The translations under genes were made by a program, and so were the position numbers. This document shows, piece by piece, positions 7,694-12,585 of a DNA stretch of 64,000 nucleotides. The stretch comes from Marinicella sp. (lineage in GTDB: Bacteria > Pseudomonadota > Gammaproteobacteria > Xanthomonadales > Marinicellaceae): NCBI GenBank assembly GCA_028284365.1, contig JANQRW010000055.1, forward strand, positions 1 through 64,000, given 5' to 3'. Position 1 is the stretch's first letter, and each line of letters starts with the position of its first letter. The notes below the pieces were generated by a model, which saw only the letters and a program-made list of their open reading frames with translations, was not told the origin of the DNA and did no database searches.

Positions 7694-9382
7694 ATGATGA
7701 GACCAACTGTTTTTATTTTGGCTGTTATGGCTATGGGGCAAATTCAAGCGGCACCAGCAGATGATTTTGTACTTACTGTGGAAGTTGATGCAGACTCGAA
7801 TAACCGCTTTACCATATTTACCAACCCAGAAGCGTCTAGCTACAACTACAGTGTGGATTGTAATGATGATGGCAATAACGAGGCCAATGGCAGAAACAGT
7901 GATTACACTTGCAACTATAGCTCTTTAGGTGGGCCGGGCACATACACCATCCGAATCAAGGACAACAGTGGTAACGGTACTGGTTATCCTGCCACCTACT
8001 GGGGCATACCCTTGCCAGATGGATCCTCTCCGAACGCCCAGCAGATTGTTGCCTTGAATCAATGGGGAACGCATAAGTGGACCACAATGAACAGTGCTTT
8101 TGAGCGCGCCCGAGAGATGGAAGTGTTCGCCACCGACATACCAGATTTGTCTGGTGTAAATGATGCAACGGCCATGTTTTTATTTGCCTCCAAGGCCAAC
8201 CCTGATACCACCAACTGGAACGTTTCCTCAATCACCAACATGCAACAAATGTTTTCTTTTGCAAAAATGGCCACGCCAAACACCAGCAGTTGGGATGTTT
8301 CTCAGGTAAAAAACATGAGCTTTATGTTCAGCAATACCGACTTGGCTGATCCGGATGTCAGTGGCTGGGTGGTTTCTGGTGTCACTGATATGAGTGGCAT
8401 GTTCAGTAATACAATCATGGCCAATCCAGATGTCAGTAGTTGGGATGTTTCATCGGTGGCGTTGATGGGCAGCATGTTTGATCGAACCAACATGGCTGAG
8501 CCAGATACAAGGTTGTGGGTTGTTAGTAGTCTGACAGGTGCCCGAAGCATGTTTCGACGCAGTCAAAAAGCCAATCCAGATGTCAGTAGCTGGGATGTTT
8601 CAGGCCTCAGGTTCATGTCAGGAATGTTTGAAGACGCGCTGGTGGCAGCACCTGATGTGAGTCATTGGGTGGTCTCTGGAGCGTGGGATATGAGTAGTAT
8701 GTTTGAAGGGGCTCAGGTGGCTAACCCAAACGTCAGTAACTGGAATGTTTCACAAGTTAATTCAATGAGGTCGATGTTTAAGGACACTGCAATCAACCCA
8801 GATGTGCGTCTTTGGATTGTTTCATCAGTGACCAGCATGAACAGCATGTTTGAAAACAACCCCATTGCCGACCCGGATGTCAGTCTATGGAATGTCTCTG
8901 AAGTGAGAGACATGCGCGACATGTTCAAAGAAACCGTTGTGGCCAATCCAGATGTCAGTGAATGGAATGTGTCATCTTTAGTGAGCATGGGTGGTATGTT
9001 TGAAGGCAGCCGGGCGGCTAATCCTGATGTCAGCGATTGGGTTACTATAAATTTGATTCGGGCTGAAGATGTGTTTTCTGGTGCTGGCGCTGCTTTGCCA
9101 GATTTGAGTGGTTGGGATGTTCGCAAACTGGAAACGGCCAGTAACATCTTGGGGACAATAGCTCTTCCTGTTCCTATGTATGATGATTTGCTGATTAGTT
9201 GGAGCCAGCAGGCACTCACGCCAAGGAAAGCGCCAGTACCATTTGGGGCTGGCCTGTCTCAATACTGTGATGGTGAGGCTGCCAGATTGACACTCACAGA
9301 CACCTTTATGTGGAACATCAGTGATGGCGGTTTAAATTGTGATTTCGATTTAATTTTTCGTGACAGTTTTGATACACCATAA
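7694..9382 (+). CDS. Secreted BspA-family (DUF285) repeat protein
   Basis: A 562-residue exported protein. A signal peptide (to about 'MGQIQAAPA', residue 21) is followed by a ~145-residue N-terminal domain with a PKD-like start. Then come 12 full copies plus a partial copy of a 25-residue DUF285 repeat (8195-9151), typical unit A-N-P-D-V-S-S-W-D-V-S-x-V-x-x-M-x-x-M-F. A ~100-residue C-terminal domain ends in 'DLIFRDSFDTP'. BspA-like proteins are surface or secreted proteins tied to adhesion and protein binding. Repeats 2-9 alternate W-D/N-V with W-V/I-V, which suggests doubling of a two-repeat unit. AAAGAGAAAA precedes two adjacent ATG codons (7694, 7697). No partner gene adjoins it. Confidence 0.9.
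   Translation: MMRPTVFILAVMAMGQIQAAPADDFVLTVEVDADSNNRFTIFTNPEASSYNYSVDCNDDGNNEANGRNSDYTCNYSSLGGPGTYTIRIKDNSGNGTGYPATYWGIPLPDGSSPNAQQIVALNQWGTHKWTTMNSAFERAREMEVFATDIPDLSGVNDATAMFLFASKANPDTTNWNVSSITNMQQMFSFAKMATPNTSSWDVSQVKNMSFMFSNTDLADPDVSGWVVSGVTDMSGMFSNTIMANPDVSSWDVSSVALMGSMFDRTNMAEPDTRLWVVSSLTGARSMFRRSQKANPDVSSWDVSGLRFMSGMFEDALVAAPDVSHWVVSGAWDMSSMFEGAQVANPNVSNWNVSQVNSMRSMFKDTAINPDVRLWIVSSVTSMNSMFENNPIADPDVSLWNVSEVRDMRDMFKETVVANPDVSEWNVSSLVSMGGMFEGSRAANPDVSDWVTINLIRAEDVFSGAGAALPDLSGWDVRKLETASNILGTIALPVPMYDDLLISWSQQALTPRKAPVPFGAGLSQYCDGEAARLTLTDTFMWNISDGGLNCDFDLIFRDSFDTP
8195..9151 (+). repeat. Tandem 75-bp (25-residue) DUF285 coding repeats, 12 plus a partial unit
   Basis: Diverged in-frame tandem copies inside the BspA-family gene. 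Twelve units run 8195-9091; unit 8 is one codon short (24 residues); a thirteenth partial unit ends about 9151. Conserved residues per unit are Pro-Asp, Ser, Trp, Val-Ser, Met and Met-Phe. The DNA copies are too different for frequent slippage. Confidence 0.9.
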
Positions 9383-9447: not shown

Positions 9448-10689
9448 TCACAGCAAAGCGCTGGCAAATAATGGCGACAAGCTGATTAATGTTTGAATAT
9501 GAGTTTCATCAAAGCCTTGTTTGCTGTTACGAGTAAAGATAAGTACGCCGCTTTTATTGTGTGACTTAATGGGTAAAGACAACACTGAGTTGGCATTTAC
9601 CTGGTTTAATAAATATTTTGCAAAATGTGCTTGTTTGTTACTGACAGTGTGCGAAAGCACATCATTTAATATTAAATACTCATGTAAATGAATGTTTTCA
9701 ATGGTGGTGTCATTGGCCAATAAGGCTTTTCCCTTCAAACCCTCTTGTGGTTGATTCGAGGCGATCAGATTAACAGCGAAAGCATCTTTTTGTGGTAATA
9801 ACAGGTACACACTGGCTACGTTAACAATGGCTTGAGACTCTTGTCGGATAACCTCAAGAGCCTGTTGTTTGGTGGGTGCAATATGTAATTGGTTCAAAAG
9901 ACTGAGGATGCTTTTGGAGCGGCCTGATAAATGGTTAAAATCTTGTACCAACTGGCCTAATTCATCCTGGCTTTGGTCTTTGATTTTCAAGCCATAATTA
10001 CCCAAGGCCACTTCACGACAGCCCTTGGCAACCCTGATTACTCGCTTAACAATGGTTTGGTTAAACCAGATAAAAAGAAGCACCATAACGCCAGCGATCA
10101 AAACTATAGCGAACCAGTTAAATTTCACGGTCGCTTTGCGTTGTGCCTCAACCAAAGACTCAAAGTTCATGTGTGCCGATGAAATACTGGCAAACAACCC
10201 AGAGGTGTCATTGAGTATGTATTCATTGCCCCACTCCAAGCGAGGCTCTTCAGGATTATCTCCAATTTGTTCCTGAAAACCTTGTTCAAAGGCAGTCCAG
10301 GCTTGTTCCATCGTTTTAAATGACTGGATGTTTTTTTCTACCAACATACCATCCAGCAAAATTTCAGCTGAAGCCGAGCGATTGTAATATTGGTGAGCAG
10401 CACTTTCCACCTGAGCGCTCAGGACACTTAGGTTATCTTGTAACTGGGTAAAAAACACTTTTAAGTCACGGTTATAAGATTCATAATCACGAGGAGCATT
10501 TTGCTTGTATTGTGATGACTGCTCGCGCATCAACTGCACCAGCTGCTGCATGTTACTCATGTCTTTGGACAGCCTGATGTCGGAAGATAGCTGTGTGATA
10601 CCTTGATTACTGAACCACAGAATAAGGGCCACGAATAAGAGGGTTATAACGCCCATGGTCATTAATTTTTTATTGAGTCCAAATGTCAT
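9448..10689 (-). CDS. HAMP-GAF membrane protein (sensor without output domain)
   Basis: A 413-residue inner-membrane protein. TM1 lies at about residues 10-30 and a helical periplasmic domain follows to about 185. TM2 is 'FAIVLIAGVMVLLFIWF' at about 190-210. A HAMP domain ('VIRVAKGCREVALGNYGLKI...DELGQLVQDFNHLSG') and a GAF domain (about 260-413) come next. There is no kinase, GGDEF or methyl-accepting domain, so any signal must pass to a partner. It is the last gene of a three-gene minus-strand operon, 20 bases after the Ser/Thr kinase gene, which makes the kinase the obvious partner. The ligand of either sensory domain is unknown. Confidence 0.82.
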   Translation of the reverse strand: MTFGLNKKLMTMGVITLLFVALILWFSNQGITQLSSDIRLSKDMSNMQQLVQLMREQSSQYKQNAPRDYESYNRDLKVFFTQLQDNLSVLSAQVESAAHQYYNRSASAEILLDGMLVEKNIQSFKTMEQAWTAFEQGFQEQIGDNPEEPRLEWGNEYILNDTSGLFASISSAHMNFESLVEAQRKATVKFNWFAIVLIAGVMVLLFIWFNQTIVKRVIRVAKGCREVALGNYGLKIKDQSQDELGQLVQDFNHLSGRSKSILSLLNQLHIAPTKQQALEVIRQESQAIVNVASVYLLLPQKDAFAVNLIASNQPQEGLKGKALLANDTTIENIHLHEYLILNDVLSHTVSNKQAHFAKYLLNQVNANSVLSLPIKSHNKSGVLIFTRNSKQGFDETHIQTLISLSPLFASALL

Positions 10690-10709
10690 TGTTTTTCTCG
10701 GTTGGTTGG

Positions 10710-11813
10710 TTACTTTCTCCAGCGATCAATAAATGCTTCTTTGTTTCCAGGGTGATCCAGCTGCGCAGCAACATTCATCACCAATTGATCGTGAGATTGA
10801 CTGTTTTTCAGGGCCGAGGTCAAAATAAAGTCGGCCATAGGTCCGATTAAATCGGCAAGATCCGCACGCATTTCGGCGAAGACATCATCCTCAACATGCC
10901 AGACCATTTCATTTTGTGTAATTACCGTGCCAGTTGTAAAAATTCCAGAGGTACTGTCAGCGGTTTGGGGCTGATCTTTCAGGGTATTTTTTAAGGTAGC
11001 TATAACTGCCTTCAACGCTTTGCCAACAGCTGCCATATTGGGATAGCGGTCAGCCACACCTGGGTTTAAACCTTTGTATAAAAAGTCATGTAAGGCCTTG
11101 GGAACCAGCAATTCAGGATTAAATTGATTGTGTTTAGCCAGTTGATCAATTTGTGCCAAAGGCATGGCATCATAGTTAGTGGGGTTTCTTAGCTTCGCCA
11201 GGAGATGATATAACAAAACAAAGAGCGCATAAACGTCAGTATGAGGCCCGATTTCGTCTGTACCGAACATTTGTTCTGGAGCCATGTATTTGGGTGTGCC
11301 CATGGTGATTCCCAGTTGTGTCATGTTGGATTGATCATTTCCCCTGGCAATACCGAAATCAGTGAGCTTTAGGCTATGCGGAGTTTTTACCAAAATATTT
11401 TCAGGCTTCAAATCACGGTGAATAATGCCATTGGTGTGAGCTGTGTGTAGCGCTTTTAACAACTGAACAAACAAGTTGATGATTAGTTTTAAGGGCAGCT
11501 TTTTATTTTGTTTCAGCCACTGTTGTAAGTTTGGGCCGTCTATGTATTCCATCACCATATAGGCCAAGTTCTGCTGCTGCCCAAAATCAAGAATGGTCAC
11601 AATGTTGGGATGATTACAGCGAGCCAGTAACCTTGCTTCCTGAACAAACCGCTCAGCAGCATCCTGCAAATACTCTGTATTATTATGGGCTGTTTTAATG
11701 GCAACTTGTCGATTGATGTTGCGATCGACACCAAGATACACCGTTCCCATGGCCCCTGAACCAATGGTATCTAAGATCTCATATTTACCTATTTTTGTGG
11801 GTGTTGATGACAT
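10710..11813 (-). CDS. Soluble Ser/Thr protein kinase (Hanks type)
   Basis: A 367-residue cytoplasmic kinase. All key motifs are intact: Gly loop 'IGSGAMGTVYLG', VAIK lysine at residue 40, catalytic loop 'IIHRDLKPENILV', 'LTDFGIAR', and 'GTPKYMAPEQ'. There is no transmembrane segment or PASTA domain. After the kinase domain (about 10-275), a ~90-residue tail contains 'LADLIGPMADFILTSALKN', which recalls the helical 'IGPxA' module at the C termini of other proteobacterial Ser/Thr kinases (from memory). The gene sits between two HAMP-bearing membrane proteins, 4 bases after the first and 20 before the second, so it probably reads signals from them. No phosphatase is nearby. Confidence 0.93.
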   Translation of the reverse strand: MSSTPTKIGKYEILDTIGSGAMGTVYLGVDRNINRQVAIKTAHNNTEYLQDAAERFVQEARLLARCNHPNIVTILDFGQQQNLAYMVMEYIDGPNLQQWLKQNKKLPLKLIINLFVQLLKALHTAHTNGIIHRDLKPENILVKTPHSLKLTDFGIARGNDQSNMTQLGITMGTPKYMAPEQMFGTDEIGPHTDVYALFVLLYHLLAKLRNPTNYDAMPLAQIDQLAKHNQFNPELLVPKALHDFLYKGLNPGVADRYPNMAAVGKALKAVIATLKNTLKDQPQTADSTSGIFTTGTVITQNEMVWHVEDDVFAEMRADLADLIGPMADFILTSALKNSQSHDQLVMNVAAQLDHPGNKEAFIDRWRK

Positions 11814-11817
11814 GTAA

Positions 11818-12585
11818 TTAGCTCAAATGGTTCATGGCAGCTTGTAAGCTGTTTTGCATGCGGTTGAAGGCCTCAGAAATCATTTTTAATTCGAATGAAG
11901 CAGGTGTTTTAAGTGCTTCAATTTCACGTTCACCACGGCTGATGCTTTGCGCATGTATCGCCGTTTCACTCAAAGGCTTGAACAGGATATAGTGCATGAT
12001 TACATTGATGATGAACCAAATCAGGACAACAACCACAATCATTTGCCACAAAAACTTCAGGTTGGCCTCATCAACGGCTGCTTGGCTTGCTTCTGTTTGA
12101 ATGGTGATCAGTTTGGCACCAACGGCCTGGTTATCATTCACAATGGGGTGAGCCAACACGTAAAAAGGTCCTTGGGCATCACGTAAGTAGGTGGTGATCT
12201 CTGGTAGCTCCGGGTTGTTTTGAAATTGCTCAATCAGCTCACGTTGCCAGGCATTGGCCTGATACCGTGATACCTGTGCTTGGATCAAAGCCACTTGATG
12301 TTGGCTGCGAGCACCCTGATTGCCCGAGTCAAAGACCTGTGTGGCCGCATAAGAGCCAACAGCCTGCGGCAAAAAATCTTGGTCCAGCTGCGCCAATAAA
12401 GGCTGAATTTCTTCAGCAGTGTATTGCCTGATGCGTTCGGAGAGCTGGTATAAGTGCTCCGCTTTTTGCATCAATTGTTTGTCCTTTTGTAAAGCCGTTT
12501 GCTGTTGGTGCAGGTGTTGCACCACCACAACCAACACAATAAGGGAGACAACCAATATCAGATTAAATTTTATTCTCAGTCCCAT
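11818..12585 (-). CDS. Membrane sensor with Tll0287-like (DUF3365) and HAMP domains
   Basis: A 255-residue inner-membrane protein. TM1 is at about residues 8-25. A periplasmic domain (about 30-175) carries the DUF3365/Tll0287-like signature ('YTAEEIQPLLAQLDQDFLPQAVGSYAATQVF' region, then 'ITTYLRDAQGPFYVLAHPI'). TM2 is 'FLWQMIVVVVLIWFIINVIM', and a C-terminal HAMP ('PLSETAIHAQSISRGEREIE') ends without an output domain. Members are often heme- or redox-linked sensory domains by family association. First gene of the operon with the Ser/Thr kinase and HAMP-GAF protein. AGAAAG precedes the ATG. Confidence 0.8.
   Translation of the reverse strand: MGLRIKFNLILVVSLIVLVVVVQHLHQQQTALQKDKQLMQKAEHLYQLSERIRQYTAEEIQPLLAQLDQDFLPQAVGSYAATQVFDSGNQGARSQHQVALIQAQVSRYQANAWQRELIEQFQNNPELPEITTYLRDAQGPFYVLAHPIVNDNQAVGAKLITIQTEASQAAVDEANLKFLWQMIVVVVLIWFIINVIMHYILFKPLSETAIHAQSISRGEREIEALKTPASFELKMISEAFNRMQNSLQAAMNHLS

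Follow-up and report, generated by a model that had tools for sequence, protein, structure and literature searches.

A soluble Ser/Thr kinase between two output-less HAMP sensors in Marinicella: a probable split transmembrane receptor kinase with a shared C-terminal tail

Three adjoining genes of a Marinicella genome, encoding two membrane sensors that end without an enzymatic domain (S1 and S2) and, between them, a soluble Hanks-type Ser/Thr kinase (K), probably specify a single transmembrane receptor kinase that is split over three proteins and in which K serves, via its C-terminal tail, as the common output of both sensors. While the combination of a membrane transmitter with a soluble kinase is known, a coupling of HAMP domain and tail apparently has no precedent in the literature searched, where no paper joining DUF3365 with a protein kinase was found.

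The window, that is, the whole stretch of DNA analysed, comprises 64,000 nucleotides. All three reading frames are open at the coordinates listed below. They share the minus strand, where S1 comes first, K second and S2 third, and the compact trio that the first-pass annotation had described, its genes 4 and 20 bases apart, is thereby confirmed; a consensus scan found no terminator-like site in either the S1-K or the K-S2 gap.

11818 to 12585, minus strand: S1, 255 aa; first TM helix, heme-less Tll0287-like/Cache periplasmic domain, second TM helix, HAMP, end
12136 to 12486, minus strand: Tll0287-like region of S1, residues 34-150; Pfam profile positions 4-99 of 144
11839 to 11985, minus strand: HAMP, the last domain of S1, residues 201-249; Pfam match and profile matches to HAMP structures
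11814 to 11817, minus strand: gap of 4 bases between the S1 stop and the K start
10710 to 11813, minus strand: K, 367 aa; soluble Ser/Thr kinase of the Hanks type, tail at the C-terminus
11046 to 11783, minus strand: kinase domain of K; VAIK, HRDLKPEN, DFG and APE intact, Pkinase match
10908 to 10973, minus strand: linker of K, residues 281-302; predicted disordered, pLDDT <50
10716 to 10889, minus strand: tail domain of K, residues 309-366; three-helix fold in the model, with a GP motif; putative module for coupling to the sensors
10690 to 10709, minus strand: gap of 20 bases between the K stop and the S2 start
9448 to 10689, minus strand: S2, 413 aa; first TM helix, helical periplasmic domain, second TM helix, HAMP, GAF, end
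10135 to 10593, minus strand: periplasmic domain of S2; all-helical in the model (moderate confidence), with a conserved NAPRDYESYNRD stretch
9919 to 10068, minus strand: HAMP of S2, residues 208-257; Pfam match
9454 to 9867, minus strand: C-terminal GAF of S2, residues 275-412; Pfam match below the cut-off

The description of both sensors as output-less likewise holds, as S1 stops at its HAMP domain and S2 at its GAF domain, and Pfam found in neither the HisKA or HATPase domains of a two-component histidine kinase. In S1 (N-terminus MGLRIKFN), two hydrophobic, putatively membrane-spanning segments flank a periplasmic domain that Pfam assigns to the Tll0287-like family (E 4.6e-7, 30.8 bits against a cut-off of 24.1). 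The HAMP match of S1 (E 4.8e-5, 24.0 bits) is slightly below Pfam's 25 and is backed by profile matches to HAMP structures; the C-terminus, RMQNSLQAAMNHLS, follows directly after it. In a 2026 preprint, the heme-c motif CxxCH is given as the defining feature of the sCache_heme/DUF3365/Tll0287 family, and a TM-HAMP protein of this family from P. azotoformans is reported to have bound NO via heme c (PMC12889525). S1 resembles the P. azotoformans protein in its two TM helices, Tll0287-like periplasmic domain and C-terminal HAMP, but differs from the NO sensors of the family in that the Marinicella protein lacks the very CxxCH that the preprint calls defining; in the parts of it that were consulted, a soluble partner of the sensor is not mentioned (PMC12889525). 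Alignment to the S1 proteins of two gammaproteobacterial MAGs (L046 and L047) and a CxxCH census revealed that the motif is missing in all five S1 proteins from Marinicella, having been lost with a deletion of about 29 residues near the end of the Tll0287-like region. One further S1 protein (G322, L230) is likewise devoid of it, and nearly all other full-length S1 relatives contain it. An assignment of Marinicella S1 as a sensor of heme or NO is therefore not warranted and was rejected. Neither the missing heme motif nor the conserved tail of K and the outputs carried by other members of the S2 family had been part of the first-pass annotation.

S2 also has two hydrophobic (TM) segments, and its HAMP domain is matched with an E-value of 4.1e-7 (Pfam). 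Its own GAF match falls below the Pfam cut-off; a relative (L129) passes the GAF cut-off, and the best PDB matches of the S2 model mostly contain GAF domains. Across 369 evenly sampled gammaproteobacterial genomes, the relatives of S2 are about 640-860 residues long, and all four that were scanned for domains are fused to HisKA/HATPase or HD-GYP. S2 aligns over nearly its full length with the N-terminal ~415 residues of most of these HAMP-GAF histidine kinases and HD-GYP receptors but ends after the GAF domain, and from its sequence it thus looks like an output-less form of an ordinary receptor.

The kinase itself is a clear Hanks-type Ser/Thr kinase (Pkinase, E 2.9e-52, Pfam) with a G-loop, catalytic motifs that are kept across nine homologs and an AlphaFold2 model (mean pLDDT 74.9, tail blocks 68-86) that matches PknA, PknB and Stk1. 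Although its kinase domain is closest to the PknB/Stk1 group, K differs from these PASTA kinases by having neither a hydrophobic or TM segment nor PASTA repeats (no Pfam match), and it reaches 240.6 bits against the NCBIfam model PknB_PASTA_kin, the cut-off of which is 450. With the defining domains missing, both PASTA kinase and two-component system were rejected as labels for the trio. The same Marinicella genome holds 12 kinase loci above the Pkinase cut-off and one PP2C_2 match.

Within the genus, S1 was found in 5 of 18 genomes. The same five encode close S2 homologs and a tail-bearing kinase, and the other 13 have none of the trio. Separation of the genes among relatives had been named beforehand as an observation that would refute the idea of a shared output. 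The idea passed this test: the order is S1-K-S2 in all five S1-bearing genomes. The HIT and ion-channel genes upstream of the trio are widespread in Marinicella, and one genome (G005, L254) presents a syntenic empty site, where relatives of the genes that lie beyond the trio in the window come directly after the ion-channel gene. From this all-or-none presence and the empty site it follows that the trio is accessory in Marinicella and was moved or lost as a unit. As to the immediate surroundings, a gene for a secreted-looking DUF285 (BspA-like) repeat protein (7694 to 9382, plus strand) is convergent with the operon in the window. In three of the five genomes, the trio is followed by a gene for a regulator of the AraC type, the N-terminal part of which includes a hydrophobic stretch (L124:4587-5729, L126:9105-10238 and L127:6322-7446; HTH confirmed in L124). 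It is missing in the window, and the idea that this membrane regulator is a conserved downstream substrate was not pressed.

Beyond the genus, parts of the arrangement recur in different combinations. S1 and K without S2 occur in the two MAGs L046 and L047, and K and S2 without S1 in two genomes of Marinicella's order (G047 = L129 and G056 = L130). S1 was detected in 29 of the 369 gammaproteobacterial genomes, where its relatives mostly adjoin a soluble kinase, encoded before or after it, and otherwise a class III adenylate cyclase. In two genomes (G152, L213, and G272, L211), one S1 gene is flanked by genes for a kinase and an adenylate cyclase with two tails each, and a single sensor may thus serve two outputs. 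Distant genomes also keep genes of this kind together, as S1 with K, K with S2, and S1 with tail-bearing kinases or cyclases, and this modular linkage across Proteobacteria supports a split receptor.

The outputs of S1-K relatives probably differ by lineage. A divergent cyclase gene stands beside S1-K in both MAGs (L046:374-1291 and L047:3069-3986) and includes, in L046, an FHA domain, a reader of phosphothreonine, which suggests a link from the kinase to cAMP. At further loci (L214:7011-7625 and L150:2379-2957, the latter in L150/L215), S1 or the K-S1 pair has a gene for an ECF sigma factor (PF07638) as its neighbour. Upstream of S1, some genomes encode a recurrent protein of 200 aa, for which the one member scanned gave no Pfam match. 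On plasmids of Caballeronia, Paraburkholderia and Skermanella, a DUF3365-HAMP gene is directly followed by a gene for a serine/threonine kinase with two tails, and these pairs (L268, L269, L271 and L273) are located within type VI secretion clusters or next to them; the Caballeronia pair has genes for a PP2C phosphatase and a FecR-like protein nearby, and TssM and TagF are encoded near a further DUF3365-HAMP/tail-kinase pair (L241, G654). In their proximity to type VI secretion genes and, in Caballeronia, to a PP2C phosphatase, the plasmid pairs are reminiscent of the PpkA-PppA-Fha pathway, by which type VI secretion is subject to threonine phosphorylation, but PpkA of A. citrulli is itself a membrane protein (PMC12607579), whereas K is soluble. 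For Marinicella, a role as type VI secretion regulator was rejected even though the pairs of its relatives do sit in such clusters: the genome, which is 99.8% complete, gave no match to the sheath gene (VipB/TssC).

The feature that connects these diverse loci is the tail, a C-terminal helical segment of about 56 residues, which AlphaFold2 predicts to form three helices after a disordered linker and the family consensus of which reads LxxxLAxYIGPLAxxLVKKAxxxAxSxEELxxxLAxEIPDxxERxxFL. Searches of Pfam, NCBIfam and PDB with single sequences, the consensus and all 46 members returned no match, and the tail was accordingly rejected as a known domain. It is common to different enzymes and proteins encoded beside S1, namely kinases, class III cyclases and small DUF4388-like proteins (for example in L233, where the tail motif was recognised by eye). 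When searched for by itself, the tail was found in 29 of the 369 gammaproteobacterial genomes, 25 of which also encode S1 (about 2.3 expected); the hypergeometric p of ~1e-30 ignores phylogeny and is to be read as "not chance" only. According to our own count in this sample, a HAMP-ended sensor adjoins 29 of 32 tail-effector loci; two of the three exceptions are on short contigs, and the third (G342) has S1 elsewhere in the genome. The rule also extends beyond S1, as output-less dCache-HAMP sensors are encoded next to proteins of 193-194 aa that end in the tail (L238 and L239). In a control of 88 kinase loci, in which 10 of 10 positive controls were detected, HAMP proteins flanked all five tail kinases as compared to none of the 83 others (Fisher p 2.6e-8), and a Pseudomonadota-wide sample of 299 genomes added three further genomes with the tail, all of them beside S1. 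Among the loci read, the seven S2-linked kinases each carry one tail, and 33 kinases without S2 carry two in tandem.

The nearest precedent is the GlnH-GlnX-PknG system of Corynebacterium and Mycobacterium, in which a soluble kinase and a membrane transmitter are encoded in a putative operon and mutants of glnH and glnX resemble those of pknG (PMC9769921, PMC6069109). GlnX, a membrane transmitter with four TM helices and tandem four-helix bundles but no HAMP, controls the soluble kinase PknG (PMC9769921). K is similarly soluble and genetically linked to a membrane transmitter. The Marinicella system differs in that HAMP or HAMP-GAF forms the end of each sensor and that the trio includes no gene for a binding protein; moreover, PknG is thought to be contacted via TPR repeats, instead of which K carries the tail (no TPR match at E up to 1). 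The first-pass annotation had set the layout apart from PASTA kinases and two-component systems, and the distinction from both was borne out, as K has no TM segment or PASTA repeats and the sensors no HisKA or HATPase. The layout is not unique to this operon: it is met with again in other Proteobacteria, and with GlnH-GlnX-PknG a split receptor for a soluble kinase has already been studied.

Because of the co-occurrence, the domain logic and this precedent, the following mechanism is proposed. S1 and S2 would each pass a signal through the membrane to their HAMP domain (in S2, plus GAF) without an enzyme of their own, S2 providing a second input beside S1. The most likely docking site for the tail of K is the HAMP region of S1 and S2, and this contact would bring K to the membrane, where a rearrangement of HAMP could switch its position or activity, and K would combine the two inputs into Ser/Thr phosphorylation. 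That the kinase is the common output of both sensors, as originally suggested, is well supported by the conservation of the genes; control by the sensors and its direction, the docking of the tail, the signals and the substrates are the parts that we infer. Some observations count against a split receptor: S1 and the tail kinase are about 260 kb apart in G342, the tail is divergent and has no GP motif in the two genomes with only K and S2 (L129 and L130), one genome (G030) has an S2 homolog (L128:5950-7206, 42% identity) and no tail kinase, and the trio, being accessory, is missing from 13 of 18 congeners.

Adjacency, moreover, gives no direction, and S1 and S2 might conversely be substrates of K that are tuned by phosphorylation, with the real output partner of these receptors encoded elsewhere; relatives of S2 do carry histidine kinase or HD-GYP outputs, and a truncated receptor could find its partner in a paralogue acting in trans. 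We consider this unlikely, as adenylate cyclases, enzymes without phosphorylating activity, are likewise partners of S1 and carry the same tail, and a tail common to different enzymes fits the docking of effectors better than the recognition of substrates. Unlikely, too, is a role of the tail as a dimerisation or autoinhibitory domain, with the sensors acting by a different route, either another contact or a third protein that has escaped notice: the usual tandem arrangement (33 kinases with two tails versus 7 with one in the loci read) is compatible with self-association, and models of single chains are unable to position the tail on HAMP, but self-association alone leaves unexplained why the tail is almost absent where there is no HAMP-ended neighbour. 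It is very improbable that the kinase came to lie by chance among unrelated membrane genes and works independently of both. The 12 Pkinase loci of the genome and the 13 of 18 congeners without the trio could be cited in favour of this, whereas it is contradicted by inheritance as a block within the genus, by the reappearance of the arrangement in distant genomes and by genome-wide co-occurrence.

With a split receptor kinase as the preferred explanation for the Marinicella trio, a wider proposal, which we regard as evenly poised, is that the tail acts in Proteobacteria as a general domain for coupling receptors to their effectors, by which HAMP-ended sensors plug non-covalently into soluble, tail-bearing effectors. 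Should this hold, periplasmic signals such as NO would be converted into Ser/Thr phosphorylation and cAMP, type VI secretion clusters would be included among the sites of such coupling, and the Marinicella kinase would integrate the inputs of two sensors, a Cache type devoid of heme and a helical-GAF type. To the question of how signals reach soluble bacterial Ser/Thr kinases, a recurrent answer would be offered by HAMP-ended sensors that are separate proteins and are linked to kinases and cyclases through an undescribed tail common to both. Such sensors would also provide a candidate output for those periplasmic heme-c NO sensors that have been reported with HAMP but no enzyme, and the tail may serve as a simple rule for finding the partners of output-less HAMP receptors in genomes.
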